NCBI GenBank assembly: GCA_934725655.1 | Contig: CAKVCJ010000006.1 | Coordinates: 1-20,544 of the forward strand | Length of the DNA stretch: 20,544 bases | Origin: an uncultured Brachyspira sp. | GTDB taxonomy: Bacteria; Spirochaetota; Brachyspiria; Brachyspirales; Brachyspiraceae | Direction of reading: 5' to 3' | In this document: positions 2,305-17,820 of the stretch, one piece after another | Numbering within the stretch: position 1 is the stretch's first letter | Layout of the letters: each line of letters starts with the position of its first letter | The notes under the pieces: generated by a model | Told to the model about the DNA's origin: nothing | The model's input: the letters and a program-made list of their open reading frames with translations, nothing else | The model's database searches: none | Translations under genes and position numbers: made by a program

Positions 2305-3612
2305 TTATTTATTACTAAATTTTAATAATTCTTCATATAAAATATTTAACGCCATATACCCATTTTTTTCATCTGGTTCTAAATAAGTTCCTTCTCCCCA
2401 TTCATTCCAAGCGTTTATAAACATAAATCTTCTATCTTTATTAAAATTTTCTCTAGTATATTTTATATTATATTTAATCCATTCTCTATATAAATCAAAA
2501 GAAAAATTATCCAATATAGAATGTTTTTTTGTTCTCGGAGAATTATCCCACATTAAGAATAAATCTTTATATGATTTAATATTAGCAAAATTATCTAAAT
2601 TAACTATCTCATTTACAAATTCTCTATAACTTCTTACATTAGCTTTTCCGTTTACCCTTAATTTTCTTCCGTTCATTGCATTATGTATAGTAAAATCTAC
2701 ATATTCATCAAATCCAAAATATTTGGCTTCACATTTTGATTTATCAAAAAGAGCGCTTACTGTAAAAATTAAAAATAAATCTTTTCCTGTTTTCTTAATT
2801 TGATAATTTCTCCAAATTTCGGTAGTTTTATTTATGTTAGGAAATATAAAAGGTTTATAAACTAATAAAACAGGCTTATCATCTATTCTTATATATCTTT
2901 TATCATCTAAATAGGCTTGCAAGGATTCTATAAATTTTTTATCATTCTTTTCAGAATAATCTTGCTTTATTAAAATATCATTTTCAGCTCCGTCCCATTT
3001 TTTAGTCCAATTTTCATTGGCATAACTTAAACAAAAATTAAAATCAATATCCTTATATTTTATATAGTTATCAACCACTTTTTGCATAAGCCTTTTTCCA
3101 GAAAAATCATAATGATAAAAACAAAAACCGTATAAGCCATAATTTTTTGCTATTTCTACTTGCTTTCTCATAACATTTACATCAGATAAATCATAATAAC
3201 CGATATCTTTATGAGGAGTTCTAGGCTGATAATGTCCGTCATAAAGAGGCAAAGCTTTTTTTACATTTGTCCATTCCGTAAAGCCTTTTCCCCACCACTC
3301 GTCATTTTCTTTAAATGTATGAAATTGAGGCAAATACCATGCTATTGTTTTTATATCAGTTTCAAATTTATCTTTTTTATCATATTTTACATATATAGGA
3401 CGAAATTTTTCTAAAATTTCATAATCTATAATATATGTATTTCTAATTTCTTTACTATATATGTTTTTATCTTTGAAAAATAAGCATATACTTATAAAAT
3501 TAAAAAACTTGACAACTATTTTTACTCTGCTATCTTTAGTAATAAATGATTTTATGCTTATAATAATATTGCCAACTTCAAATATTTTATCAATTTCAAA
3601 AATTTGTTTCAT
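2305..3612 (-). CDS. WbsX-family (GH99-like) glycosyltransferase
   Basis: 435 residues. After about 88 weakly conserved N-terminal residues comes the full WbsX/GH99-like domain. Its landmarks in order are AWYLPQFHTFKENDEWWGKG, FTEWTNVKKALP, HYQPRTP, YGLYGFCFYHY, NENWTKKWDG and, near the C-terminus, NAWNEWGEGTYLEPD. This family occurs in O-antigen and other surface-polysaccharide clusters as predicted glycosyltransferases or glycan-modifying enzymes. The protein is probably cytoplasmic, since no signal peptide or membrane span is evident. The start is firm: its ATG shares a base with the stop of the upstream gene (TAATG at 3614-3610), so the two are translationally coupled. It is paralogous to the N-terminal half of that neighbour. 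Exact substrate is unknown. Confidence 0.85.
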   Translation of the reverse strand: MKQIFEIDKIFEVGNIIISIKSFITKDSRVKIVVKFFNFISICLFFKDKNIYSKEIRNTYIIDYEILEKFRPIYVKYDKKDKFETDIKTIAWYLPQFHTFKENDEWWGKGFTEWTNVKKALPLYDGHYQPRTPHKDIGYYDLSDVNVMRKQVEIAKNYGLYGFCFYHYDFSGKRLMQKVVDNYIKYKDIDFNFCLSYANENWTKKWDGAENDILIKQDYSEKNDKKFIESLQAYLDDKRYIRIDDKPVLLVYKPFIFPNINKTTEIWRNYQIKKTGKDLFLIFTVSALFDKSKCEAKYFGFDEYVDFTIHNAMNGRKLRVNGKANVRSYREFVNEIVNLDNFANIKSYKDLFLMWDNSPRTKKHSILDNFSFDLYREWIKYNIKYTRENFNKDRRFMFINAWNEWGEGTYLEPDEKNGYMALNILYEELLKFSNK

Positions 3613-6225
3613 TAATTGTTACCTATTTTACTATTATAAAATTTCATAATATATTCAAACATAGATTCCGCTGAAATATCTTCGGCAATATAACCCTTAT
3701 CATATTTTGAAACTCTTTCCGCTTGAGCTCCTAAATTAAAACATATTATAGGTTTTTCCATTAAAATAATTTCTTGCGTAGTGTATGAGAATGTTTCTGG
3801 ACATATAGACGGCATTATAAAAATATCTATATCGTATTTTTCAACAATTTCTACTAAATTCTCATGTTTATATTCTCCATGTATAGTAATATTATGATAC
3901 TCTATTATATCTGAATTAAGAATATCTCCAATTAAATAAAAATGCATATTGTTATTTTTAGACGATAAATTTAACAAATCCTCTAATATAGAATAGCCCT
4001 TAATTTTAGTTATTTTACCCAAAATTCCAATATGCAATTTATCTTTTTTGATTGAATTAATCGGAATTCTATTTATCCAATTAACTTTATGCGGAATTAT
4101 TTTTATTTTTTCTTCGTTTATAAAATATACTTTACTAAAAATATCTTTAGAAGAATTGGAGAAAAATAATATTTTGTTAGATGTATTAATCAAACATTGA
4201 AAAATCTCTCTAAATTTTTTAATATTTTTAAAATATAAACCTTTTATACAGCTATTACATATTTTTAAATCACTTGGTATATTGCAATAATATTTATTTT
4301 TATAAAGTAAAAAACAACGAGGACATATATAAAAATAATCATGAACAGGAAGAATAACATTAATCTTTTTTTCTTCTGAAATATTTATTACATAGTTAAT
4401 TACTTGATATAAATATTTTTTATACGAAGCAAGATTATTTACAAATATCTCTTCTATTAAAAACAAATCGTATATAAAATATATATTTTTTAAATCATAA
4501 AAATAATAATAATATTTATCATATTTATAATTTACTTCCATAAAATATTTATCATTATTTGTATATATAACGAAAGTTATAATGTTATTTTGTATATTTT
4601 CTTTAATTTTCTCATCTAAATATATATCGGCTCCGTCTCCTAAATTATGGTCAAATACGATTATAGCATTTTTACATTTTTTAGATAATGTATTTAAAAT
4701 AATATCATTATTAGATATATTATTATATTCGAAAATCTTTTCATAACTAAATGGTATTATTTTATTATATTTACATATGACTTCGTTATCCCCAATTATT
4801 GAATTAGAATCTATTAAAGCTCTAGCTGTAGCATCTAAATATGCATAACCGTTTCTTGAATCAGGCTCTAAATAAGCGCCTTCTGCCCATTCGTTCCAAG
4901 CGTTTATAAATACTAATCTTTCATATCCTTCAAAATTCTCTTTTGTATTATTTATTAAATGTTCAAGCCAAAATTTATATAAATACGGAGTCGAGTTTAT
5001 TATAGTTCCTCCTTTGCCTTCTGCTCTTCTTGCTTCGTTATCCCAATCGGGACATAAAGACCTAAATTCTTTATAATTTGGAATAGCCTTATTATAAGAA
5101 TAATCTATTATATCATTATAATCTACAATCCATGCTCCAGATGTGTAATTATTATTAAAAAGTTCTAATTTATTAATATCATAATTATTTACTCTTCCGA
5201 TTGCATATTCTATATATGCATCCGCTCCAAATTTTTCAGGATTTTCTACGCTATGGGTATTAGATATAGTAATATATAAATTAAAACCACCGTTATCTAT
5301 ACAATATTTTCTCCACATATTGATTGTTTTCTTCATATTTTGCATTAGCGTAGGACGATATATATTTAAAAGAGGCTTATTATTAACCCTTATATATCTA
5401 TTATCTTGAAAGATAGGAAATAAAAATTTTATTAAATTTAAATCATCTTCATCAGAATATTTCTGTTCTATTAAAATATCTTCTTGGCTTCCATCCCATC
5501 TCCTTGCCCAAGATTCATTAGTCCAAAATAAACAAAAAGGAAAATCTAAATCAGGATTATTTAAAACCAAATCTAAAGGTTGTTCTAAAAGCCTCTTACC
5601 ATCAAACCAGTAAAAATAATAATAAAATCCGTATATTCCATAATTTTTAGCTATTCTTACCTGTTCTTCATGAACTTCTTTTAATCTTAAATCATAATAT
5701 CCTAAATCTCCAGGTAATCTTGGTTGGTAATGTCCTTTAAATTGTGGAAGCGCTTTTACGACATTAGCCCATTCCGTAAAGCCCTTTCCCCACCATTTAT
5801 CGTTTTCAGGTATAGGATGAAACTGGGTAAGGTAATATGCTATAAGTTTTATATCTTTAGGTTTTATATTATAATTTGTATAATGCTTATAATAAAATGA
5901 TTTACCGCTATAAATATTTATAATACCTGTTTACTAATAAATCCTCTGGAATTAAAGCGAAAACTATATTAATTAAAAATAAAATCCTAAATTTTACATA
6001 TAACTTTTTAACTTCTACATTATTATAACTTGAGGATATTGATAACATATTATTTTGGGAATAGATAAATTTAGATTTATATGTTTTCATTTTAGAGCAG
6101 TTTTTTAATATAAAGCATATATTGATAAAAAATAATTTTATGTTGAGTAATATAGAGTTTCTATAGTCAACATATTCGGCATATATATCAAAAATATAAT
6201 TTTTCTTATTCTTTATAAATTTCAT
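3612..6225 (-). pseudogene. WbsX–GT4 fusion glycosyltransferase with an N-terminal frameshift
   Basis: The frame ending at 3612 is open back to a stop at 5931-5933, but between 5571 and 5930 it has no ATG and still encodes conserved WbsX sequence (IKLIAYYLTQFHPIPEN, WWGKGFTEWANVVKALP, YGIYGFYYYFYWFDGKRLL). The first usable codon, TTG 5570, would cut off that half domain. The missing N-terminus lies one frame over, from ATG 6225 to TAG 5908, and resembles the start of the downstream paralogue. The frames overlap at 5908-5933, so one extra base there restores a protein of about 870 residues. Domain order: variable N-terminus (1-~120), WbsX (~120-400, with NAWNEWAEGAYLEPD), a GT4 N-lobe with HDYFYICPRCFLLY, and a GT4 C-lobe (HIGILGKITKIKGYSI; MPSICPETFSYTTQEIILME). 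Likely role: surface-glycan assembly. Either a recent frameshift mutation or a sequencing indel. Confidence 0.75.
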
Positions 6226-6409
6226 AATAATTCTATGCTATTTAATAATGAGAATTAATTGTATAAATATGTTAGATTAGGGATAATAAGATATAGAAAA
6301 CTAAACTTCTAGAAAATATTAACTTAAATCATTACTAAATAATAAACTATAAAAATCAAAATAAATTTTATTTTATGTCTTTTATTAGTAATATTTACAC
6401 ACTTAATTA
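6226..6409. other. Divergent intergenic region between glycan genes and the radical SAM operon
   Basis: AT-rich, non-coding spacer separating the minus-strand glycosyltransferases from the plus-strand operon. An imperfect inverted repeat, ATTACTAA at 6331-6338 and TTAGTAAT at 6385-6392, flanks a 46-base loop just upstream of the -35 box. In such AT-rich DNA it may be chance. No other structure is visible. Confidence 0.45.
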
Positions 6410-6438
6410 TTGACATATTATTGTATTTTATGTATAAT
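6410..6438 (+). promoter_or_regulatory. Perfect consensus promoter of the radical SAM/UvrA-like operon
   Basis: TTGACA at 6410-6415, a 17-base spacer, and TATAAT at 6433-6438. Transcription would start near 6445, leaving a leader of about 34 bases before the precursor ATG at 6479. A strong Shine-Dalgarno GGAGG at 6465-6469 sits nine bases before that ATG. The promoter rules out the in-frame ATG at 6410 as the true start, because that codon lies inside the -35/-10 region. Confidence 0.8.
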
Positions 6439-6478
6439 ATATACATTCGTTAAATTTAAAAATTGGAGGTTTCTATAT

Positions 6479-6619
6479 ATGGAAAATGTTTCTGATGATT
6501 TAGAAATTGAATTAACTGAAAAAGAAGTAGATGACTTTATTAAATTTTTATCTGAGAAAAAAGAATATCTTGATACGGGATTAGGCGCTTTTCATACAGA
6601 TAATCATAGTAATTGGTAA
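6479..6619 (+). CDS. Candidate RiPP precursor peptide (46 residues)
   Basis: The start is set by GGAGG at 6465-6469 and the promoter just upstream. The N-terminal part is acidic and helix-like (SDDLEIELTEKEVDDFIKFL), as is usual for a leader peptide. The C-terminal part, LDTGLGAFHTDNHSNW, is Gly/His/Asn/Asp-rich and ends in Trp, as is usual for a core peptide. It has no Cys, so lanthionine or thioether chemistry is unlikely. Aromatic and His residues spaced with small polar residues (F-H-T, H-T-D, H-S-N) would suit side-chain crosslinking by SPASM radical SAM enzymes. It is first in a six-gene operon containing four radical SAM domains, and its stop is 14 bases before the next ATG. A precursor role is inference from position, size and composition; I know no homologous family. 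Confidence 0.65.
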   Translation: MENVSDDLEIELTEKEVDDFIKFLSEKKEYLDTGLGAFHTDNHSNW

Positions 6620-6633
6620 TTATATTTTTAAAC

Positions 6634-7734
6634 ATGTTACAAAAAAATATTACTTTTTATGATGATAAAAAAATATTAAATTTAATATTAAAAGTTAATG
6701 GTTCATATTGTAATATAGATTGCGATTATTGTTTTGAAAAAAATAAATCTTTAGACTGCAATATGCAAATAACTTCAGAGTATTTATTAAATTTATTAAA
6801 TAATATTGAAGGTAAAATAGTTGTGACTTTTCATGGTGGAGAACCGCTAACTATTGGTAAAGATAAATTCATTAGTTTGCTTGAAACTATAAAACCTTTT
6901 TATCCGCATAAGATAATGTATATATATTTACAAACTAACGGTTTGTTATTAGATAAAGAATGGATATATATTTTATTCGAAAAATATAAGAATTTAAACA
7001 TTGAAATATCATTGAGTTTAGATGGCACTTATTGTATGAATTCTTTAAGAACAGATTATAATAAAAAAAATACTTATAAAGATGTTATAAATGCTTATGA
7101 ATTATTAAGAGAAAATAATATATCGGCTGGTATGCTAAGTGTTATATCTAAAAATTCTCTACCGTTTTATAAAGAATATATAGAAATTATAGAGAGTATT
7201 AAAAATTTAAGATTTGTTAAAATAAACCCGTTATTTAATATGATAAATAATCACCTAACAAGCGATAGTATTACGCCAACAGAATTCTCTAATTTCATAA
7301 TTGATATCACAAAGCTATATATTAAGAAGAAATTATATAAAAGAGTTGCTATAGAGCCAATTCTAAGCATATTCCAAAAAATTAATAATATTGAATCTAA
7401 ATATTGCAATTATAATACTAATAAATGTTACCAATTTATATCGTTATATCCAAATAATATTATTTCTCCTTGTGATTGTTTTTCTACAGATGATTTTAGA
7501 ATCAATAATGATATTAATCTTATTTTAAATGAAAATATTTCTCATTCTATATTTAATGACGATAAAATTATAAAAAATATTTTAGAAGATTGTAAAAAAT
7601 GCGATATATTTTGTTTATGTTCAGGCGGTTGTATTTCTCAAAGGTATTATTTATATAAAAATAAATCGTTGTATCAAGATTATTGTAAATCTAAAATTAT
7701 ATTGTTCTCTTTTGCAAAAGATTTTAAGGAATAA
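6634..7734 (+). CDS. Radical SAM/SPASM peptide maturase (first of the operon)
   Basis: 366 residues from ATG 6634. A TTG at 6613 overlapping the precursor stop would add seven residues but has no better ribosome site. The radical SAM cluster is Cys26-x3-Cys30-x2-Cys33, followed by the SAM-binding FHGGEP at 66-71, LQTNG, and SLDG. The C-terminal SPASM region carries paired Cys around 257-285 and then Cys320, 323, 327, 329, 333 (in CSGGC) and 351, enough for auxiliary [4Fe-4S] clusters. Enzymes of this layout abstract a hydrogen from a peptide side chain and form C-C or thioether crosslinks in ribosomal peptides. Next to the candidate precursor, the same role is likely. No RRE/PqqD-like domain precedes the Cys motif. 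It resembles the minus-strand enzyme at 16515-17546 in the central 'NP-x-F' and 'EP/DP-I' segments. Confidence 0.88.
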   Translation: MLQKNITFYDDKKILNLILKVNGSYCNIDCDYCFEKNKSLDCNMQITSEYLLNLLNNIEGKIVVTFHGGEPLTIGKDKFISLLETIKPFYPHKIMYIYLQTNGLLLDKEWIYILFEKYKNLNIEISLSLDGTYCMNSLRTDYNKKNTYKDVINAYELLRENNISAGMLSVISKNSLPFYKEYIEIIESIKNLRFVKINPLFNMINNHLTSDSITPTEFSNFIIDITKLYIKKKLYKRVAIEPILSIFQKINNIESKYCNYNTNKCYQFISLYPNNIISPCDCFSTDDFRINNDINLILNENISHSIFNDDKIIKNILEDCKKCDIFCLCSGGCISQRYYLYKNKSLYQDYCKSKIILFSFAKDFKE

Positions 7735-7740
7735 AATATT

Positions 7741-9558
7741 ATGTTTGAATCTAATTTTTTTACAGACGCTATATATATCAATATTCCATTTTGTAATAAA
7801 AAATGTTATTTCTGCCATTATACAGATAATTTAGAATTTTCCGCTACAAAAATAGAGAATAATTATTTTTACACATTAATTAATCAACTAGAATATATTT
7901 TAAAAAATATTAGAAATAATAATTTAAAAAGTATTTATTTTGGAGGAGGAACGCCATCTTTGCTAAACAATGAACAAATAAATATTATAGAAAATATATT
8001 TAATCATTATGATATAATTGCTGAAGAAATATCTATGGAATTATATCCAACCATTTGTAATTTCGATTATACTAATAATAAGTTTTTTAATAGATATTCT
8101 ATAGGCGTTCAGAGTTTCGATAAAAGTCTATTAAAAAAATATAATAGAAAAAAATATAATTTTTACATTATAAAAGATATTATGGATAATATAAAAAAGA
8201 ATAATATTAATAATATTATTAATATAGATTTAATTTTTGATGAATTTATTTTAGAAGAAGATATTTTTAATGTATTAAAATTATGCCCAGATTCTATTGT
8301 TTTCTACCCTAACACTAAAGGGAGAGGATTAAAAAGATTAATAAATATATACGATTCTTTATATAAATTATCATACAACATAGATGGGTATAAAAGCTTA
8401 GGAAAATCTAAATTTATATTTCTAAAAGAAAATATAGAAGAGTCTAATTACTCAAAAGTTGAATATGGTTATATTGGAAATATAATAGGTGTAGGACATA
8501 ATAGCGTTTCATATATAAATGGCGATTCGTATTTATCTTCATTTAGAACTAAAGAATTCTATTTTTATAAAAGAATAAATAATATATCTAGATATCATGA
8601 TATAATTATAAAATCCTCAAATATAGGAGTTATTAAAGAGACTATTAATAAATACTTTAGCTCATTATTAGATTCTAATTTATTTGCAGAAGAAAATAAT
8701 ATATTATACATCCCAAAATATAATTATTCTTTGTTCTATAAATATTTATCGGGGAATTATGGCGGTAAATATGCAGATATATTTGCTTCTTGCGTTTTAT
8801 TTGGAGATAAAGACTATAATAATTTAGATTATATATCTGATAATTATTTAGATTATAAAACAATATATAGCTTAAACAAATTTGCTAGCGATAATTATTT
8901 AATTATTAATAAGAATTTTAAGAAAGAGACTTTACCAAATATGTTTATATTAATTGAAGGGATAGACGGCAGCGGTAAAGATACTTTTGCTAATTTGTTA
9001 GCAGTAAAAATAAAAGAAAGATTTAGGTATATAGAAAACTATCCATTATCAATCATTGGACAACCATATTCTAAATTTAAATACGGAGTGGAGGCAAAAT
9101 CATTTATAGAAAATTTAGATATAGAATATGGAAAAGAAAAAATTATTAAATATTTAACGGAAAATAGAATAGAATCAGAAAAATATGTAAATAGTTTAGG
9201 AGGTTTGGCAATTTGTATAAGGGGGGTATTAACGGATATAGCGACTTTTAATTACGCTTTTAATGAAAATACTAATAATGCTTTTGGTTTATGCTCAAAT
9301 ATAAAATACATAGATAAATTAATAATCATCGATATAGATGAAAACGAAGCAAATAATAGAATAGAAAATAGAAATATAAAAAGAACTTGGAGAGAATACT
9401 TGCCGCAATTAAAATATTTTAGAGATTTTTATCTAAAGTATAATTCTAATCATATAAAAGAAAAAATAATCATAAATAATAACGATTATAATAAATTAGA
9501 AGAATATTGCGAAAAATTATCTAATGAGTTATATTTTAAGGCATTAAAAAATGGATAG
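7741..9558 (+). CDS. HemW-like radical SAM protein fused to a thymidylate-kinase-like domain
   Basis: 605 residues; Shine-Dalgarno AAGGA at 7726-7730. Residues 1 to ~390 follow the HemW/HemN-like plan: YINIPFCNKKCYFCHY with Cys18-x3-Cys22-x2-Cys25, GGGTPS at 68-73, SIGVQSFD at 120-127, IIGVGHNSVS, and a C-terminal winged-helix-like part. HemW relatives act as haem chaperones, but HemN-like members in peptide pathways (class C enzymes) methylate with two SAM molecules. Residues ~401-605 form a P-loop kinase domain most like thymidylate kinase: IEGIDGSGKDTF (lysine 413), ENRIESEKYVNSLGG, ICIRGVLTDIATF in place of the usual DR-x motif (the Asp is Ile here), and a basic lid (NRIENRNIKRTW). The kinase joins the open frame at an internal ATG (8941) without its own ribosome site, so it is a true fusion. 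I do not recognise this domain pair. Substrate unknown. Confidence 0.82.
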   Translation: MFESNFFTDAIYINIPFCNKKCYFCHYTDNLEFSATKIENNYFYTLINQLEYILKNIRNNNLKSIYFGGGTPSLLNNEQINIIENIFNHYDIIAEEISMELYPTICNFDYTNNKFFNRYSIGVQSFDKSLLKKYNRKKYNFYIIKDIMDNIKKNNINNIINIDLIFDEFILEEDIFNVLKLCPDSIVFYPNTKGRGLKRLINIYDSLYKLSYNIDGYKSLGKSKFIFLKENIEESNYSKVEYGYIGNIIGVGHNSVSYINGDSYLSSFRTKEFYFYKRINNISRYHDIIIKSSNIGVIKETINKYFSSLLDSNLFAEENNILYIPKYNYSLFYKYLSGNYGGKYADIFASCVLFGDKDYNNLDYISDNYLDYKTIYSLNKFASDNYLIINKNFKKETLPNMFILIEGIDGSGKDTFANLLAVKIKERFRYIENYPLSIIGQPYSKFKYGVEAKSFIENLDIEYGKEKIIKYLTENRIESEKYVNSLGGLAICIRGVLTDIATFNYAFNENTNNAFGLCSNIKYIDKLIIIDIDENEANNRIENRNIKRTWREYLPQLKYFRDFYLKYNSNHIKEKIIINNNDYNKLEEYCEKLSNELYFKALKNG

Positions 9559-10501
9559 AGGAATAACAATAATTTTAAATCTGGCATCTAATTTATGCAA
9601 TATGCAGTGTTTATATTGCTATGAGCATAACTTTAGTAAATATAATAAAATAAATAATTTAACATACGCTAAATTAGATGAAGTTAAAGAGTATCTATCT
9701 CAATTTAAAGAATATCCATATATACTTATACTTTTCCATGGCGGAGAACCTTTGTTATTTGGAAAAGATAATTTAGAAAATATATTTTATTTTATAAAAA
9801 ATAACTTCAGAAATAAATATAGGATACAAGTTCAAACTAACGGAACACTAATAGATAATGATTTTATAGAAATTTTTCTTAAATATGGAGTTGAAGTATC
9901 CATATCTTTAGACCCGTATGGAATTAGAGATTTAAGAAAATCAGAAAATTTTGAATATAGAAATATAGTCATAAACAACATGTTAATGGCGTCTAATAGA
10001 TTAAGCAATATAGGAGTAGTTTCAGTGGCTCACAAATATAATTTAAATTATTTTAAAGAATTTATAGATGAGCTAATTAAATATAATATTAAATATTTAA
10101 CCATAAATAAAATAAGATATTCCGAGCATTACACAAATTTTTATATAACTGAAAAAGAATATAATGATATGCTAAAAGAACTTCTGTTATATTGGATAAA
10201 ACATAAAAAATACAAACTTATAGATATACAACCATTTATTTCTTTATTAACAGACCATAAAATTTGTATTTATTCATCAGACAAAAACAAATGCAATTAT
10301 TTTAGAACATTTTATAATAAAGAATATAACACTAATTATTGCAGTCATATTATTAATGATATTCCCACTATTGACAACAAATGTCAAAAATGTTATATTT
10401 ATGAATGGTGCGGTTCTGGTTGTTTAGTAGAATATAAAGACAATACTTTTTGCAATTCTAGAAAAGATTTTAAAAAATTTTTAGGCACGATACATTTATG
10501 A
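9551..10501 (+). CDS. Radical SAM/SPASM peptide maturase (second of the operon)
   Basis: 316 residues. Its ATG lies eight bases inside the preceding gene, which implies translational coupling; a weak AAGG site at 9538-9541 precedes it. Motifs: Cys16-x3-Cys20-x2-Cys23 (CNMQCLYC), FHGGEP at 62-67, VQTNGT, SISLD. The C-terminal SPASM cluster has Cys248, 264, 278, 281, 287, 291 and 301, with the CQKC-x5-CGSGC core intact, so two auxiliary iron-sulfur clusters are plausible. It is shorter than the first maturase and clearly distinct from it, so the two probably perform different crosslinking or oxidation steps on the same peptide. No RRE domain. The family is a confident call; the reaction is not. 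Confidence 0.86.
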   Translation: MDRGITIILNLASNLCNMQCLYCYEHNFSKYNKINNLTYAKLDEVKEYLSQFKEYPYILILFHGGEPLLFGKDNLENIFYFIKNNFRNKYRIQVQTNGTLIDNDFIEIFLKYGVEVSISLDPYGIRDLRKSENFEYRNIVINNMLMASNRLSNIGVVSVAHKYNLNYFKEFIDELIKYNIKYLTINKIRYSEHYTNFYITEKEYNDMLKELLLYWIKHKKYKLIDIQPFISLLTDHKICIYSSDKNKCNYFRTFYNKEYNTNYCSHIINDIPTIDNKCQKCYIYEWCGSGCLVEYKDNTFCNSRKDFKKFLGTIHL

Positions 10502-13500
10502 TAATAAAAAATTTAACGGCTAACAATATATTAAATTTAAATACTAATATAGAATTAGATTGTTCAATATCTATATCGGGACTATCGGGTTCAGGGAAAA
10601 CTACATTTTGTAAAGTTATAAGCGATGAATCTTTAAAGCGTATAGTTACATTATTGCCTAAAAGCGAATACAGATTTTTGTTTTCAGAATTTCTACAAAC
10701 AAATTTTTCAGCTCAAAATATTAAAGATATTCCTTTATCATTTTTTTTAGAAAAAACTTCTATGACTTCAAATGTAAGGTCTACTGTTGGAACACATACG
10801 ACAATATTTAAAAATATTAGAAAAATATTTGCTAAAAAATATAAATGCCCTTCAGAATTTTTTTCATTTAATAACTCTAGATTTTGGTGCAAAAAATGTA
10901 AAGGTAGAGGCTCTAATTCTGGAATTGAATGTAAAGAATGTAATTCCAATAGATATTCTAATGAAATTACAAAATATACAATCTTATGTAATGATAAAGA
11001 ATATAATATTATAGATTTTAACCGCATGAACATATTTACATTGATGAAATTGTCAGATTATTTAGGATTCACTTCCGATATAATAAAAATGCTCGATAAT
11101 ATGATTAAATTAAATATAGGATATTTGTCGCTCGATAGAATAGTTAGCACTCTTTCAGGCGGAGAATATGTAAGACTATTATTATCCGAATTTATGACAT
11201 ATAGCCATAGTTCTTTATTAATAATAGACGAAATATCTATAGGTTTGGATACAAATAGTTTATATAATATATTAAATAACATAGGAAATTTAGGAGTTGA
11301 CAATCAATTATGGTTTATAGACCATAGCGATACTGTTATAAATTCTGCTGAAAACAAAATATTTTTTGGACCAAAAAGCGGAAAATATGGAGGTGAAATT
11401 GTAAAAGAGTCCCCTCGACCATTGGAAGAGATGTTTGAAATTAACGTTAATGAAGTTGATAGCTATTATATACTAAAAAATTTACATAAACGCAATATAA
11501 ATATAAAAGAATTAAAGATACCTGAAAATAGACTAACCGCCATAATAGGAGAATCTGGATGCGGGAAGTCAACTTTAGTAAAAGATTGTATAGCTCCAAT
11601 TTTTGAAAAATTATATAAAAATTCTAAATTAATTTTGATAGGACAAAATAGAAATCAGTCTATAACATCAAAATCTACTATAGAAACATTTTTAGATATA
11701 AAAAATAATATATCAAAAATTAAAAATATTGATAATAATGCTTCTATAGAAGATATAATTAATTTTATACCGCAAAAAGATAAATCATATATATACCTTA
11801 ATTCTATTATAGATTTAGGATTAGGATATTTAAATCTTAATAGAAAAATTCAAACTTTATCTACTGGAGAATTTCAATGTATTCACTTAATATCAGAATT
11901 ATTTGTATATCCTAATAAAAAAATATTGTTTATATTTGACGAACCTTCAAAAGGACTTTCTCAAAATATATTAAATAAATTTATGAAATACATCAGAAAT
12001 ATTTTAAACGATAAAAATATTACCGCTATTATGATAGAACATAACGATTATTTAATAAAGAATAGCGATTTTATAATAGACTTTGGAAAAAGAACGGATG
12101 ATATTATATCTGAATTAAAATTTGTTAACAATTTTGAATTTTATAAAAATAAAAAATGTATAAACAAAAAACATATAATAATAAAATCGGCTATTCCTAA
12201 AAATAACGGCATAGAATATATAAAGGACAATATAGAAAACTATTTTAATAAATCCGAAAATATATTTCGAGGAGGCATATTAAAAAATATATCTCAAACT
12301 GCGAGATGGATATATGGAGATTACTATTCTGACAATGTAATTCCGGAGATAACTATTGATTTTGAAAAGCAGTTATATAGTAAAAATACATTTTTATATG
12401 AATGCGCAGGGTTAGTAAATAGAATTTTATTATTGAATAATAATAAATCCGAAAATATAGAATACTTTGACTATTATAATCAAGAAAATCTTTGTAAATG
12501 TTGTCAAGGAAATTCTAATATAGAATCTTTCGATATATCAAAAATAATAAAGAATGAAAATAAAAATTTATGGAATGGATTATTTGAAGACGATATAATG
12601 AAAGCTATAAAAAATTATAATTATCAGAAAATAAAATTCTTATTTAAAGAAGTAAAAAAAGAGACGGGGTTAGATTTAAATAAAGAATTCAGTTCTATGA
12701 ATAAAGAAGAAAAAACAATATTTTTATATGGATATTGGAAAACAGATTTCTATGATACCGATAAGAATACAAGGCGATATTGGAAGGGTATGATTTTTTT
12801 GATAAAAAAATATATGAAGCAATCTAATAGCAAATTAAAAGACATTATAAATAAGTCAAAAAACGAAATAGTATGCCCTATTTGTAATGGAAATATATTA
12901 AATCATGATATAAATTATTTAGTAAACGGAAAAGATATTAGAACAATATTATCAGATACTATAGAAAAAAATTATAAAATACTTTCTAATATAGATATTA
13001 TAAAAGATTTATCAGAAATATTAGGTAAAGATATAAAATTAAACGAGGATGTTTCTAAATTAGATTTTTATAAACAAGCTAAATTAAAGCTTATTGAATT
13101 ATTATATTCAAGTTTTTATGGTTTCAATATAGTATTAAAAAATATAAATCCATTTAAAGACTATGCAAATAAAATAATAGAAAATATATCGGTTAATAAT
13201 AAAGTTATAATTTGCGATTATGAAGGAATTAATAAAACTAAAGACGATATTTTAAGAGAATGTTTTCCTGATTCTAAATATTCATCTTTTGTATATGAAT
13301 TATTTGGATATAAAAAAATACATACAGATATAAATAAAATTAGAAAAGATTATCCATGCGAATATTGCGGCGGTAAAAAAGTATTAAAAGAAGAAGGAGT
13401 CTTTGAAGGCATTGATTATGAAGTTCCATGCGATAGCTGTAATGAAACGGGTTTATCCGAAAAAGGATTAAATAGTAAAGTAAATGGATATTTAGTAAAA

Positions 13501-13644
13501 ACATGGCTTAACGGTAAAATATCGGATTTTATAAGATACGATAAAAAAATAGAAAATATAAAAAATATACGCATTAGCATGAGAATAAAAGAACTTAATA
13601 AAAAAGAGTTGATAGAATTATACAACTATTTAAAGGCAAAATAA
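10498..13644 (+). CDS. Rearranged UvrA-like ABC ATPase
   Basis: 1048 residues; starts by ATGA overlap with the preceding stop. First ABC half: Walker A GLSGSGKTT (28-36), VRSTVGTHTTIF, zinc motif Cys131/134/145/148, signature LSGGE (219-223), Walker B IIDE (D244, E245), H-loop His276. Second half: Walker A GESGCGKST (351-359), a degenerate signature LSTGE (454-458), Walker B FDEP (D481-P483), His515. Residues ~545-1048 have no P-loop but match UvrA insert regions: CKCC near 664, GLDLNKEF...TIFLYG, RRYWKGMIFLIKKYM, CPICNGN, VIICDYEGINKTKDD, then PCEYCGG...EVPCDSCNETG. UvrA is normally about 940 residues with these zinc modules inside the ABC halves. Here they follow them, as if a third half lost its ATPase core. 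It is not housekeeping uvrA. Role: possibly resistance to a DNA-binding product (as UvrA-like DrrC of the daunorubicin cluster) or ATP-driven maturation. Confidence 0.85.
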   Translation: MIIKNLTANNILNLNTNIELDCSISISGLSGSGKTTFCKVISDESLKRIVTLLPKSEYRFLFSEFLQTNFSAQNIKDIPLSFFLEKTSMTSNVRSTVGTHTTIFKNIRKIFAKKYKCPSEFFSFNNSRFWCKKCKGRGSNSGIECKECNSNRYSNEITKYTILCNDKEYNIIDFNRMNIFTLMKLSDYLGFTSDIIKMLDNMIKLNIGYLSLDRIVSTLSGGEYVRLLLSEFMTYSHSSLLIIDEISIGLDTNSLYNILNNIGNLGVDNQLWFIDHSDTVINSAENKIFFGPKSGKYGGEIVKESPRPLEEMFEINVNEVDSYYILKNLHKRNINIKELKIPENRLTAIIGESGCGKSTLVKDCIAPIFEKLYKNSKLILIGQNRNQSITSKSTIETFLDIKNNISKIKNIDNNASIEDIINFIPQKDKSYIYLNSIIDLGLGYLNLNRKIQTLSTGEFQCIHLISELFVYPNKKILFIFDEPSKGLSQNILNKFMKYIRNILNDKNITAIMIEHNDYLIKNSDFIIDFGKRTDDIISELKFVNNFEFYKNKKCINKKHIIIKSAIPKNNGIEYIKDNIENYFNKSENIFRGGILKNISQTARWIYGDYYSDNVIPEITIDFEKQLYSKNTFLYECAGLVNRILLLNNNKSENIEYFDYYNQENLCKCCQGNSNIESFDISKIIKNENKNLWNGLFEDDIMKAIKNYNYQKIKFLFKEVKKETGLDLNKEFSSMNKEEKTIFLYGYWKTDFYDTDKNTRRYWKGMIFLIKKYMKQSNSKLKDIINKSKNEIVCPICNGNILNHDINYLVNGKDIRTILSDTIEKNYKILSNIDIIKDLSEILGKDIKLNEDVSKLDFYKQAKLKLIELLYSSFYGFNIVLKNINPFKDYANKIIENISVNNKVIICDYEGINKTKDDILRECFPDSKYSSFVYELFGYKKIHTDINKIRKDYPCEYCGGKKVLKEEGVFEGIDYEVPCDSCNETGLSEKGLNSKVNGYLVKTWLNGKISDFIRYDKKIENIKNIRISMRIKELNKKELIELYNYLKAK

Positions 13645-14642
13645 TGTTAACTTACGATTTAAAAGTCGGATATTCATGCAATAATAAATGCAAACATTGC
13701 GTTATAGCCGATAGCAACGATAAACTTATTAATAATAATATTAATGCGGATTTAACTACTGAAGAATGTTTAAATCTAATAAATGAAAACATTAATAAAG
13801 GCATAGATAAAATAGTTCTTACTGGAGGAGAAGTTACTTTAAGAAAAGATTTTGATATTTTATTAAAAAAATGCAACGATAATAATCTTTTTATAACTAT
13901 ACAAACCAACGGCAGAAGATTATATAAAAAATTTGTTTTAAATTCTATAAAAAATATTGATAATATAAAATTTGTAGTCGCTTTACATGGAGCGAAAGCG
14001 AAAACGCATGACAATATAACCTGTATTAAAGGAAGTTTTAATGAAACTATAAAAGGAATTTCCGCCATTATAAATATTAATAAAATTGTTATATTAAAAG
14101 TAGTTATATCTAAAATTAACGCCGAAGAATTACCCTATATAGTAAATGTAGCTAATGAGTTAGGAGTTAAATATATATGTTTTGCATTTCCGCATGGTCA
14201 AGGAAACGCCAGAAAAAATTTTAACGATGTTATACCAAAATATTCATATTTGCAGCCTATATTAGAAAAAATAATAGAAAATTCAAAAATATATAATATA
14301 AATATAGAATTTGAAGCCATACCTTTCTGTATAATATATAAACATATGCATTTAGTTGGGGAATTAAAATATTTAAAAAGCTCCGAAATATGTTCGCAGG
14401 TTCATGAAGATATTTTTGATTGGAATAAAATACGACATTCTATAAAATCCAAAGGCGCAAATTGTAAAAAATGCGCGTTATATTCTATTTGCGAAGGTCC
14501 TTGGTCGGAATATACGGATGCTTTTGGATTTGACGAGCTAAAACCAATAATAGTTTCAAGTTTGCAAAAAGAAAGAATACTAAACGCCTTGCATAATATT
14601 TACGCTAAAGGCGATTTAGAAATAGTAAATTTCAATCCGTAA
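13644..14642 (+). CDS. Radical SAM protein with twitch/SPASM-like C-terminus
   Basis: 332 residues; ATG shares one base with the preceding TAA (TAATG), with AAAGG at 13632-13636 upstream. The radical SAM motif is Cys12-x3-Cys16-x2-Cys19 (CNNKCKHC). It is followed by LTGGEVTLRKDFD (GGE at 61-63; Val where most relatives have Pro) and IQTNGR. The C-terminal cluster is small: Cys250, then Cys274-x2-Cys277-x5-Cys283 in a CKKCALYSICEGPW-type segment, consistent with one auxiliary cluster. It differs from the FHGGEP-type maturases of the operon and looks closer to MoaA/PqqE-like enzymes. As last gene of the operon it would do another redox step on the peptide or on a nucleotide-derived part. Its last 43 bases overlap the 3' end of the opposing gene. 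Confidence 0.83.
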   Translation: MLTYDLKVGYSCNNKCKHCVIADSNDKLINNNINADLTTEECLNLINENINKGIDKIVLTGGEVTLRKDFDILLKKCNDNNLFITIQTNGRRLYKKFVLNSIKNIDNIKFVVALHGAKAKTHDNITCIKGSFNETIKGISAIININKIVILKVVISKINAEELPYIVNVANELGVKYICFAFPHGQGNARKNFNDVIPKYSYLQPILEKIIENSKIYNINIEFEAIPFCIIYKHMHLVGELKYLKSSEICSQVHEDIFDWNKIRHSIKSKGANCKKCALYSICEGPWSEYTDAFGFDELKPIIVSSLQKERILNALHNIYAKGDLEIVNFNP

Positions 14643-16501
14643 GGGGCTTTCATATCGTTTTCAAATGCATTTTGCAACTCTTCTATTAACGATACAGGCT
14701 CTTTTACTTTTGGACCTATTATTATTTCTCTTAAAGCGTCATTTTCAAAAATATTTACATATTCCTTACATAAAGAATCTTTACCATTATCATAATATAT
14801 GTCGCTATCCGATAATTTAGCTATTCTTAATATTCTCATCTCTTGCTCTTCTACAAATGCGCTGTCTTTAATTAGATACCGTATATTAATCAATAATCTA
14901 TACGCCTTATTTAACGCTTCTTTATCATTTTTTAAGTCTTTTAATTTTTCAAAAATTCTATTAAATATATAACCTACTCTATCCCCTAATTTAAGATTAT
15001 CATCTTTTTTATTTTTCTTATTATTCCATCTATAATCCTTTTTATTTAAATCAACCTCTATGTTTTTGTAGTCGGAAGCGGTTGGATTAAATATTAATTT
15101 ATTCTGCTCTCTATTGTAATATAAAACAAAATATATAGGCAATAATTTATTCTGCTCATCGGCTATAGGCGTGGATGGATGATAGAAAAAAGTATCAAAT
15201 AAATTTTTATTGAATACTAGACAAACTCCAGTTCCTTCATCTTTTCCATCTATACTATATTTAGTATTTTTGCCATATAATCTAAACATCGTAAGCGAAT
15301 CTCTTAATCTTGTAAAAGATTCTTGCAAAATAGTGAACGATATATTTTTTTTCTTTACAGCAAAATTATTTTCTATATCGTTAGAATCTATATATATTAA
15401 ATTCTTATTTAAGATATCATGCAGTATTTTACCCTCTTTAGGGTCATTAACTTTAGATATACTAAACATTTTTAATTTACTTTTAGGGTCCTTTGTTAAA
15501 GCCTTTAATACTCCTATGCTCATGTAGGTGCTAATATCTTTTATATTCCCTTTCTTCTTAATAGATAATAAATCTAAAAGCATATATTGTAATATCCATA
15601 ATTCTTTTAATTCTTTTTTATATTTATCTTTATTACTTACTACAGAATTAAAATATTCTTCTTTTTCCCAGATATAATCAAATTTCGCAATACTTCCTAA
15701 AATATTATTAAATTCATCATCAGTAATATTGCCTTCTTTTTTAGAAATATATACTTTTTTAGAAATATATACTTTTTTAGAAATATATACTTTTTTAGAA
15801 ATATATACTTTTTTAGAAATATATACTATAACTCTATGAATTATAAAATGAATATCTATAATATTTTTGCACTTATCTTTATTAATTAAATTATCATATT
15901 CAAATATTTTTAAGAATTCATCTATATTAGATTTTTCAAACTCTAATATTTTTATATTATAATATCCAATAATTGCGCTTTCATATACGCTACTGTCATT
16001 ACTTTTAATAGCATTTTCATAATCTTCTATAATTTTACTATATTCAATTTCATTATCGCCTTCAATTTCTTTCAAATTATGCGATGCATTTGCTTTGTGA
16101 ACAATATATTCATACCTTTTATCATTGAAAATATAATCAACTTTATCGACAAATTCTATTGCCTTGTTATAATACTCTATTACTTTTCTATAATAAGATT
16201 TTATTTTTTTTTCATATTTTTTAGGTTCTAATAATTTAATTTTTTCATTGTAAATAGAAGCTAAAATAGAATATTCATTATAGGTTTTATCATTATCATC
16301 AATTTTATTTATGAAATTTTCCGCTTTATTTAGATGGTTTATATTATTCTCTATCCTAGCTAATTCATAATAAATTTCCGCCTTTTTGAATAATATGTCG
16401 TTTTTATCACCTTTATTATGATTATATTTTTTTTCTAAAATTTCCAGACATTTATCATACTGCTTTTTAGAAAAATATATCATGCAATCATACGGTATCA
16501 T
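14600..16501 (-). CDS. TPR-like protein with C-terminal DUF2971 domain
   Basis: 633 residues. The start is supported by GAGGAG at 16513-16508, six bases before the ATG. Residues 1 to ~230 are regular Lys/Glu/Tyr-rich helical repeats of TPR character (LFKKAEIYYELARIENN; YYNKAIEFVDKV). Residues ~226-256 are five copies of VYISKK, encoded by an 18-base tandem repeat. From ~330 on it resembles DUF2971: SKVNDPKEG near 350, SLTMFRLYGK near 407, GTGVCLVFN near 425, then EEQEMRILRI, EIIIGPKV and PYGLKFTISKSPLA at the end. DUF2971 has no established biochemical function. No signal peptide or membrane span is seen. It follows the radical SAM gene at 16515 by 13 bases, so both are likely co-transcribed. 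Whether it serves the peptide pathway is unknown. Confidence 0.75.
   Translation of the reverse strand: MIPYDCMIYFSKKQYDKCLEILEKKYNHNKGDKNDILFKKAEIYYELARIENNINHLNKAENFINKIDDNDKTYNEYSILASIYNEKIKLLEPKKYEKKIKSYYRKVIEYYNKAIEFVDKVDYIFNDKRYEYIVHKANASHNLKEIEGDNEIEYSKIIEDYENAIKSNDSSVYESAIIGYYNIKILEFEKSNIDEFLKIFEYDNLINKDKCKNIIDIHFIIHRVIVYISKKVYISKKVYISKKVYISKKVYISKKEGNITDDEFNNILGSIAKFDYIWEKEEYFNSVVSNKDKYKKELKELWILQYMLLDLLSIKKKGNIKDISTYMSIGVLKALTKDPKSKLKMFSISKVNDPKEGKILHDILNKNLIYIDSNDIENNFAVKKKNISFTILQESFTRLRDSLTMFRLYGKNTKYSIDGKDEGTGVCLVFNKNLFDTFFYHPSTPIADEQNKLLPIYFVLYYNREQNKLIFNPTASDYKNIEVDLNKKDYRWNNKKNKKDDNLKLGDRVGYIFNRIFEKLKDLKNDKEALNKAYRLLINIRYLIKDSAFVEEQEMRILRIAKLSDSDIYYDNGKDSLCKEYVNIFENDALREIIIGPKVKEPVSLIEELQNAFENDMKAPYGLKFTISKSPLA
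15736..15825 (-). repeat. Five perfect 18-base tandem repeats inside the TPR/DUF2971 gene
   Basis: The plus-strand unit CTTTTTTAGAAATATATA occurs at 15736, 15754, 15772, 15790 and 15808 without a mismatch. The unit is six codons long, so gain or loss by slipped-strand pairing changes protein length without breaking the frame. Its product is a repeated VYISKK spacer between the helical and DUF2971 parts. Confidence 0.95.
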
Positions 16502-16514
16502 ATAATACTCCTCG

Positions 16515-17546
16515 TTATTTATTTAAATAATATAATATATAATTTTTTATCTCTATTCTGTATTGACAATATTCTATCAATAAATCTCTATTATATTTTT
16601 TATAAATATTTATTATTGAAGGACAACCGCCAGAGCATAATTTTAGCATACTGCATTCTTTGCAATATTCTATTTCTTCTTCTATATATTTTGGATATGA
16701 ATCAAAAATTGTTTCGCTTTTTTCATAAGTATGCATTGCATCGCAATATCTTATAGAACCATCGGAATATATAGAATAAAATTTATTACATTTTATCATA
16801 AATTTATTTACATGCGAATTAAGTCCAGATATTATATCCGTTATTGGGTCCAATTTAAAATTATTATATGTTTTATATTTTATCATATAATTAAACGCAT
16901 TTTTTAGAGCTTTTAAATATTGTTTAGGTGTAATAGCCCACTCTTTCAAGCCATTATCATCTATATCAAAGCATGGATTAAGTTTTAAAAATTTAATATT
17001 TTTAAAACCGGAAAAATACTTCATTATACTATTTACCGAATTATATGATTTAGAATTTATAGTTGCTATACATCTAAATTTTATATTTTTTGAATCTATC
17101 GAATGTAAGAAATTATCCACTTTATTAAAAGAGTTTTCTTTATTTATAATTCTAAAATAATTAGATTTAAAATCACCATCTAAACTAACGCTTAAATCCA
17201 AATCATTTTTATTATGGTAAAAATAATCTACCCATTCATTATTTAAGTATCCATTAGTTTGTATAGACGGTTTCTTTTCAAAATTTAATTTTTTTATATG
17301 AGATAAAATCTTATCAATATTATCAATACCTATAAGAGTAGGTTCTCCTCCATGGAATATTATATGAGTATCTTTTGGAAGTGTAGAAATAATATTTATT
17401 ATATTATCAAAATTGAATTTTATTTGCTCATCTCTAAAATCTTTTATTATTTCTGAACAATATAGACAGTTCATATTACATTTATTACCATTCAACTTTA
17501 ATAAAACTGTTTTTGGGTCGTTAAAAGCATAAGAACAAACTTCCAT
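16515..17546 (-). CDS. Radical SAM/SPASM peptide maturase of the opposing operon
   Basis: 343 residues. Motifs: Cys23-x3-Cys27-x2-Cys30 (CNMNCLYC), FHGGEP at 64-69, IQTNGY, VSLDGD, and LKLNPCFDI. The C-terminal SPASM region has an early Cys pair (IKCNKFYSIYSDGSIRYC), then CKECSMLKLCSGGC and a final YCQYR, so the auxiliary-cluster ligands look complete. It is most like the first maturase of the plus operon (ITPTEF versus ITPKQY, IEPILSIF versus LDPITDII), suggesting duplication and divergence. No small precursor ORF lies upstream, so its substrate may be the 6479-6619 peptide in trans. The ATG at 17546 has no Shine-Dalgarno site and sits seven bases after a -10 box, pointing to a leaderless message. 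Confidence 0.87.
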   Translation of the reverse strand: MEVCSYAFNDPKTVLLKLNGNKCNMNCLYCSEIIKDFRDEQIKFNFDNIINIISTLPKDTHIIFHGGEPTLIGIDNIDKILSHIKKLNFEKKPSIQTNGYLNNEWVDYFYHNKNDLDLSVSLDGDFKSNYFRIINKENSFNKVDNFLHSIDSKNIKFRCIATINSKSYNSVNSIMKYFSGFKNIKFLKLNPCFDIDDNGLKEWAITPKQYLKALKNAFNYMIKYKTYNNFKLDPITDIISGLNSHVNKFMIKCNKFYSIYSDGSIRYCDAMHTYEKSETIFDSYPKYIEEEIEYCKECSMLKLCSGGCPSIINIYKKYNRDLLIEYCQYRIEIKNYILYYLNK

Positions 17547-17553
17547 AAATAAT

Positions 17554-17581
17554 ATTATACATTATATTGTAAATTTGTAAA
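17554..17581 (-). promoter_or_regulatory. Promoter of the minus-strand radical SAM/DUF2971 operon
   Basis: On the minus strand, TTTACA (17581-17576), a 16-base spacer, and TATAAT (17559-17554). Seven bases separate the -10 box from the ATG, so transcription would start at or next to the start codon. A second TTTACA at 17573-17568 is only eight bases from the -10 and is less suitable. Confidence 0.6.
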
Positions 17582-17820
17582 ATATTATATTTAGAATTTT
17601 TATAAATTTCTCTATGCAAATAATAATTATAAAAAATAAATTTAAGGATTAATATTAGATAAAAAATATGTTATACTAAACTAATTAATAGAATAAAGCT
17701 AAAATGAGTATTAAAAAACACATTTTTATTTAATAAAATATAATATTTTCTATTCCATATAAATAGTGATAATTTTTTTATATTCTTACTTTACTCCTTA
17801 TACCATTATTTATTTAAGCT
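17582..17820. other. Non-coding spacer upstream of the minus-strand operon
   Basis: AT-rich spacer between the radical SAM promoter and the 3' end of the DUF2142 remnant. The longest start-led frame noticed, from ATG 17704, has only nine codons (MSIKKHIFI). No terminator with a GC-rich stem is visible. Confidence 0.45.

Follow-up and report, generated by a model that had tools for sequence, protein, structure and literature searches.

What do six adjacent genes of an uncultured Brachyspira sp., a spirochaete of the gut, make together? The question is raised by a stretch of 20,544 nucleotides (contig CAKVCJ010000006.1 of assembly GCA_934725655.1, positions 1 to 20,544; the whole stretch is called the window below). 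Open reading frame (ORF) analysis placed the six genes on the + strand, between 6479 and 14642, in the order precursor, SPASM-A, HK, SPASM-B, UvrA-like and rSAM-C: a small peptide gene, two radical S-adenosylmethionine (SAM) enzymes of the SPASM type separated by a fusion of a HemN-type radical SAM domain to a deoxythymidine monophosphate (dTMP) kinase-like domain, a UvrA-like ATPase and, last, one more radical SAM protein. A preliminary description, made from the letters of the DNA, had proposed an operon for a ribosomally synthesized and post-translationally modified peptide (RiPP). The operon is most likely the pathway to one fixed peptide-derived molecule, a natural product or a cofactor, and we are highly confident that it specifies a RiPP with a single fixed product. 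As far as the searched literature shows, it represents a new class within the RiPPs, a known kind.

The precursor family and its genomic company

The 46-residue precursor was compared with 5.8 billion proteins in a word-based search (5-residue words, E up to 10), which returned 20 candidates, all of them matching and all of them small ORFs of 43-63 residues. The existence of these 20 relatives supports the view that the small ORF is a selected gene. Its last 16 residues, LDTGLGAFHTDNHSNW, were identical and C-terminal in 21/21 aligned sequences (the window precursor and its 20 relatives), and the leaders of the same sequences showed a mean pairwise identity of 35%, with a minimum of 15%. An identical core behind freely varying leaders implies one exact molecule under strong selection across distant bacteria. 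The family spans bacteria of different phyla; its named carriers are two Brachyspira species, including Brachyspira intermedia (Bint_2588), and Candidatus Ventrimonas. Relatives that differ at a single residue would keep several words in common with the query, and none with an altered core residue turned up in this search.

No curated precursor family was matched by the precursor (NCBIfam, among the best 25 matches listed), three strings taken from the core were absent from the open-licence PubMed Central literature and the core DNA pattern had no match in viral contigs. Precursor matches to TcaA_2nd (0.0052, below cut-off), PRK05905 and SduA, as well as a tblastn match in Rhizobium (E 4), were taken as chance. 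Residues 17-46 weakly match phrog_17255, to which no function is assigned there (E 0.0007); this may be chance.

Co-occurrence in other genomes was measured between 20 precursor clusters, 111 HK clusters and the 120 UvrA-like clusters listed out of 5762 matches, by longest contigs of exactly equal size and not by gene order read from DNA. A longest contig was shared with an HK cluster by 17/120 of the UvrA-like clusters; in a control in which the HK contig sizes were jittered by up to 5%, the mean was 0.44 matches and the maximum 4 in 2000 runs. Four of the 20 precursor clusters matched an HK cluster, and three of these also matched a UvrA-like cluster (contigs of 94,822, 9,997 and 61,864 bases); among the 9 precursor clusters on contigs >8 kb, 4 matched HK. 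The protein distances of HK and UvrA-like correlated across linked pairs, as expected for co-inheritance (r 0.52 for 16 of the 17 pairs, the pair with the kinase-less P0207 being dropped; 12 of 5000 permutations were as high). The identical C-terminus of all the small ORFs and the co-occurrence of precursor, HK and UvrA-like clusters strongly support the RiPP reading of the preliminary description.

In agreement with that description, no exporter, protease or RiPP recognition element (RRE) was among the best 25 matches listed for each of the six operon proteins, apart from the general ABC ATPase families that the UvrA-like protein matches. The pathways of pyrroloquinoline quinone (PQQ) and mycofactocin lead to cofactors, established or proposed, and the operon is like them in its short precursor (MftA, PqqA), divergent leader, invariant C-terminus, SPASM enzyme and lack of an exporter among these matches. 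It differs from both in having a Cys-free core of 16 fixed residues, a pair of SPASM enzymes, the HemN-like/kinase fusion and the UvrA-like ATPase, and in having neither an RRE among the matches listed nor dehydrogenases. Families of the MftC/PqqE type stayed below cut-off (scores listed: mycofact_rSAM 67.2 for rSAM-C against 265; PqqE 55.3 against 381.35).

The product could be a small cofactor or redox carrier made from the peptide, as in the mycofactocin/PQQ systems: the core would be trimmed and used in the cell, and the UvrA-like protein would serve as client or carrier and not for resistance. Passages of PMC3023750 describe for mycofactocin a variable leader, a C-terminus invariant across phyla and no transporter or recognisable immunity protein; here, too, the C-terminus is invariant across phyla, and neither an exporter nor an immunity gene was recognised. 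In mycofactocin, according to these passages of PMC3023750, seven of the final eight residues are fixed, whereas all 16 are fixed here, beyond the needs of a small cofactor. In addition, the operon contains no dehydrogenase or other obvious client enzyme, and UvrA-like proteins occur without the operon, which would be odd for an obligate client. We consider a cofactor of this kind unlikely.

The short invariant core would also suit a ligand that needs to be recognised, as a signalling peptide (pheromone) with a conserved receptor would be. Pheromones, however, usually differ between species, and this core is fixed; the operon has no regulator, receptor or exporter, and an ATPase of UvrA architecture would be unexpected in such a system. 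These points make a pheromone very improbable.

The coordinates of the operon are given in Table 1. The promoter had been called perfect, and it is: all 12 positions match, and it is the sole 12/12 match within 5500-18500. Promoter-like sites overall were about as frequent as in shuffled sequence (154 against a mean of 133.8, sd 11.8). The strong ribosome-binding site in front of the 46-residue gene was found again, and the reported gene spacing was exact, with two gaps (14 and 6 bases) and three overlaps (8, 4 and 1 bases). Translation of SPASM-A could also begin at an in-frame TTG, at 6613. A convergent gene (14600-16501) overlaps the final 43 bases of rSAM-C, so that rSAM-C is very likely the last gene of the operon. 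It is not marked as foreign by composition, the G+C content being near-equal before (21.7%), in (22.7%) and after (21.4%) it.

Table 1. Features of the operon in the window, with their positions
Feature	Position	Strand	Basis
Sigma-70-type promoter TTGACA-17-TATAAT	6410..6438	+	12/12 consensus match
Ribosome-binding site GGAGG, 9 bases 5' of ATG	6465..6469	+	Sequence
Precursor peptide gene, 46 aa, acidic leader and core	6479..6619	+	20 homologous small ORFs, alignment
Invariant core LDTGLGAFHTDNHSNW, residues 31-46, up to the stop	6569..6616	+	21/21 identical
SPASM-A, radical SAM/SPASM peptide maturase, sulfatase-maturase/YhhB/DynA-like, 366 aa from ATG	6634..7734	+	Radical_SAM, seven-Cys motif
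HK, HemN-type radical SAM domain (1-342) fused to dTMP-kinase-like domain (397-602), 605 aa	7741..9558	+	
SPASM-B, second radical SAM/SPASM maturase, YhhB/DynA/XyeB-like, 316 aa	9551..10501	+	Family scores, seven-Cys motif, HK fusions
UvrA-like, 1048 aa: two intact ABC ATPase domains (1-555) and a probably degenerate UvrA-type half (557-1048)	10498..13644	+	
rSAM-C, radical SAM protein without the full SPASM motif, nearest HxsC4 / AhbD, 332 aa	13644..14642	+	

The product of the convergent gene, on the - strand, is 633 aa long, matches DUF2971 at its C-terminus and is weakly TPR-like at its N-terminus; within the gene, a tandem repeat of 18 bases (15736-15827) encodes repeated VYISKK. Another SPASM maturase of the FHGGEP type, the third, is encoded at 16515-17546 (-); this protein, SPASM-D, shares 30% identity with SPASM-A, and no obvious precursor ORF was seen directly upstream of its gene. 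On the other side of the operon, direct repeats of about 140 bases in 2305-5570 (-), with 71-74% identity (2356/4845 and 3220/5718), suggest a tandem duplication of one glycan gene, which we take to be of the WbsX type.

The radical SAM enzymes and the HK fusion

The four radical SAM domains of the preliminary description were all recovered: CxxxCxxC is present in 4/4, and Pfam Radical_SAM was above cut-off in each (2.4e-13 for SPASM-A, 1.2e-16 for rSAM-C). The seven-Cys SPASM pattern with CxxxCxxC is complete in SPASM-A and SPASM-B, and only in these two of the four. HK stays below the cut-off of the HemW family TIGR00539 (79.2 against 205.4). Among the best 25 NCBIfam matches for each of eight proteins scanned, the generic SPASM model TIGR04085 was the only one above its cut-off, for SPASM-A, which just passes it, and for the neighbouring SPASM-D (27.3 against 27).

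Cyclophane makers are among the curated families closest to SPASM-A and SPASM-B, and the core contains aromatic-X-X motifs; in both respects the operon is like the triceptides (YhhB, XyeB, FxsB, GrrM) and dynobactin (DynA). Passages of PMC11002830 state that YhhB acts on His and Tyr, giving His/Tyr cyclophanes, and that dynobactin has Trp-Asn plus His-Tyr links. The operon differs from the YhhB and DynA systems in its extra enzymes and in scores that lie below both cut-offs: SPASM-A reached 101.2 bits for YhhB (cut-off 445) and 98.4 for DynA (cut-off 450), and SPASM-B 82.3 and 76.7, respectively. For rSAM-C, which lacks C-x2-C-x5-C-x3-C, NF038332 gave 105.1 bits against a cut-off of 500.

The best match of SPASM-A was TIGR03942 (142.5 bits), as might be seen if the SPASM enzymes activated a protein in the manner of a sulfatase maturase and the small ORF were a regulatory or structural accessory. 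That score is far under the cut-off of 349.45, no sulfatase family was among the matches listed for the eight scanned proteins, and a divergent leader followed by an invariant C-terminal core is what marks a substrate and not a regulator; activation of a protein is scarcely plausible.

Viperin, which would unite a radical SAM enzyme with a nucleotide kinase, was rejected: NF038283 gave 38.5 for SPASM-A and 48.2 for SPASM-B against 180, and both proteins have SPASM motifs. In plasmids, SPASM-A and SPASM-B had only matches of <60% identity, with distant maturases among the matches listed. A Cetobacterium somerae plasmid (L028, 9413 bases) carries a radical SAM gene and then a major facilitator superfamily (MFS) transporter gene, plus a RelB/RelE-type pair, and is possibly another small peptide system.

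HK shares 96% identity with a protein of Brachyspira aalborgi that is named 'radical SAM protein'; named relatives come from Treponema, Synergistaceae, Clostridiaceae and Cetobacterium, and a kinase-less one from Pelosinus. The motifs CxxxCxxCHY and EG[IV]DGSGKD were kept in 79/79 aligned HK proteins (the window and 78 of the 111 clusters, after most of the fragments, fusions and kinase-less relatives had been set aside). HemN-like class C enzymes bind two SAM molecules, according to passages of PMC12871812. HK is like the class C methylases NosN, NocN and TbtI in its HemN fold and CxxxCxxC, and its profile matches NocN at 4.2e-17; it is unlike them in being fused to a kinase-like domain, and the operon has no thiopeptide machinery.

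The kinase-like domain had been recognised correctly: Thymidylate_kin is above cut-off in HK (32.7 against 27), and the domain has the fold of the dTMP kinase superfamily and a P-loop. It differs from dTMP kinases in three ways. The equivalog TIGR00041 was not reached (37.3 bits, cut-off 83.25); the residue before the invariant Arg494 is I, L or V in 79/79, at a position where we take dTMP kinases to carry Asp; and WRE, presumably in the lid region of the kinase, is invariant.

Two relatives of 913-916 residues, P0191 and P0194 (Cetobacterium sp.), consist of HK fused to a C-terminal SPASM-B-like part, which is 45-47% identical to SPASM-B over its length, against 28-29% to SPASM-A. Shorter relatives of 362-408 aa (P0207, P0214, P0216, P0217 and P0219-P0222) match the HemN-type part of HK only, and P0207 shares its longest contig with the UvrA-like P0010; the kinase may therefore be separate or dispensable in some lineages.

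In whole genomes, 367/398 matched HK at E <= 0.001, and the best match (1.9e-22) spans query residues 10-157 only, so that none of the 398 has a full-length homologue. HK was unmatched at E <= 1e-40 in sets of 10, 13 and 371 genomes and at E <= 1e-30 in sets of 63 and 329 (partly the same genomes); these misses indicate rarity in those samples only, because no sampled genome is known to carry HK. Plasmids and phages gave 65 and 18 records, 0 of them with 80% coverage, the matches listed being partial ones of the HemW type, and neither HK nor the UvrA-like protein had a match in viral contigs.

The UvrA-like ATPase and its relatives

The assignment to the UvrA family was upheld by a match to ABC_tran. 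The protein has two ATP-binding cassette (ABC) ATPase domains in the UvrA arrangement (the structural comparison covers residues 1-556), and both Walker A motifs were kept in 50/50 aligned proteins (the window and 49 of 120); the UvrA equivalog TIGR00630 was not reached (264.9, cut-off 729.8). The second half (557-1048) has no Walker A or signature motif and keeps invariant Cys pairs and insertion-domain-like sequence; PF17755, the insertion domain, scored 22.2 bits at 679-779 (cut-off 23.2). A phmmer comparison with 2r6f gave E 0.0053 for the whole sequence, its collinear stretches being singly non-significant (i-Evalues 2.7 and 25). The protein is a compact two-ATPase UvrA joined to what is probably a degenerate UvrA half, to judge by the PF17755 score, these stretches and the Cys-pair spacing. 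For a possible internal duplication the support was weak: profile comparison by hhalign gave probabilities of 28-41% for the best pairings, and <1% when residues 311-556 were set against the second half.

According to the preliminary description, homologues of the UvrA-like and HK genes that stand alone would speak against its interpretation. They were found for the UvrA-like gene, the one of the two whose other loci were read: in 7/7 full-length Bacillales loci it had no radical SAM-motif neighbours and no core, and it is therefore not peptide-specific everywhere. These Bacillales proteins form one shallow clade, and the deep branches of the family hold HK-linked proteins. In 3/7 of the loci (L001, L004 and L006; ~8700-9900; names given by eye) the gene follows an ArsR-type regulator and a SRPBCC/AHSA1-type gene, a possible hint at its function in Bacillales. 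In L002 and L005 it adjoins a gene that is presumably of the ylqF type. Plasmids yielded one record with 80% coverage, from Niallia taxi, and 2/398 whole genomes matched at E <= 1e-120. The MADS defence families mad3 (111.9 bits) and mad8 (50.5 bits) both matched the UvrA-like protein; the other seven scanned proteins matched no mad family.

The likeness to UvrA suggests that the ATPase may contact nucleic acid. UvrA-like proteins in antitumour-compound gene clusters confer self-resistance, according to passages of PMC10413001, and UvrA-like self-resistance is also described in passages of PMC10192343. Unlike Ecm16, DrrC and UvrA2, the present protein has a much shorter ATPase half and a second half that lacks both Walker A and signature motifs, is 1048 residues long and has radical SAM neighbours.

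A further explanation is that the RiPP is exported as an antibacterial and damages or binds DNA. The UvrA-like protein would then confer immunity, and the orphan proteins (Bacillales; perhaps Intestinibacter and Campylobacter) would be the resistance of non-producers; the stand-alone relatives would fit such an orphan resistance role better than that of an obligate client. On the other hand, no exporter or protease was recognised, and some Bacillales UvrA-like genes resemble stable chromosomal genes (L002, L005). The core is moreover invariant, whereas antibiotic cores usually vary between species. We regard an exported antibacterial as distinctly unlikely.

The proposed pathway

A new RiPP-type operon, mechanism included, is the explanation that we favour, with moderate confidence. 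The variable acidic leader would recruit the enzymes, and SPASM-A and SPASM-B would form cross-links between aromatic residues of GAFHTDNHSNW and residues nearby, with Phe38, His39, His43 and Trp46 as candidate donors; that this pair cross-links the core is, on balance, probable. The HemN-type domain of HK, with two SAM molecules, would add or rearrange a one-carbon or similar unit, its dTMP-kinase-like domain would phosphorylate either the peptide product itself or an attached nucleotide, and rSAM-C would carry out an additional radical step. HK and SPASM-B may act jointly, since they are a single protein in two relatives. The product would be retained in the producer or exit via general routes, because the operon has no recognised exporter or protease. 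The UvrA-like ATPase would handle the product on nucleic acid, where it would most likely protect the producer itself in the manner of Ecm16/DrrC; we give such a role slightly less than an even chance.

Several points weigh against this explanation. The operon is known from sequence alone, and the chemistry above is what its genes would predict. The co-occurrence of precursor, HK and UvrA-like rests on equal contig sizes and not on gene order, and no contig match was obtained for 103/120 UvrA-like, 93/111 HK and 16/20 precursor clusters. Unmatched UvrA-like clusters include those of Intestinibacter, Campylobacter and the Bacillales clade with its stand-alone loci; 11/16 unmatched precursor clusters sit on contigs <4 kb. 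The Brachyspira intermedia chromosome (3,304,788 bases) has a precursor, P0244, and is shared with no listed HK or UvrA-like cluster; this is perhaps an orphan or decayed operon. Beyond the window, SPASM-A, SPASM-B and rSAM-C were covered through the HK and SPASM-B fusions only. The word search favours relatives with an intact core, so that more divergent cores would be missed, and no RRE that would account for recognition of the leader was among the matches listed. As a whole, the interpretation given in the preliminary description is partly supported.

Its statement that no described class combines these parts agrees with the open-licence PubMed Central literature, in which none was found by title or start of abstract among the matches listed, either for RiPPs with radical SAM and UvrA-like proteins or for Brachyspira with radical SAM enzymes. 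There, UvrA, ribosomal synthesis and radical SAM came together in one paper only, a review of bisintercalators, and no paper united three of thymidylate kinase, radical SAM, HemW, UvrA and peptide maturase. Two combinations were found nowhere in the searched literature: the fusion of a HemN-type enzyme to a dTMP-kinase-like domain, and a UvrA-derived ATPase in a radical SAM peptide operon.

In its most specific form, the proposal is of a fixed-core peptide, rebuilt by the four radical SAM domains and phosphorylated or joined to a nucleotide by the dTMP-kinase-like domain, that would act on nucleic acid with a dedicated single-chain, asymmetric UvrA pseudo-dimer as its partner; we put this forward tentatively and think it rather doubtful. 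We know of no RiPP that resembles such a peptide with a UvrA-derived ATPase partner. If true, the operon would turn a peptide into an agent that acts on DNA, or into a cofactor, served by an ATPase machine of its own that derives from UvrA.

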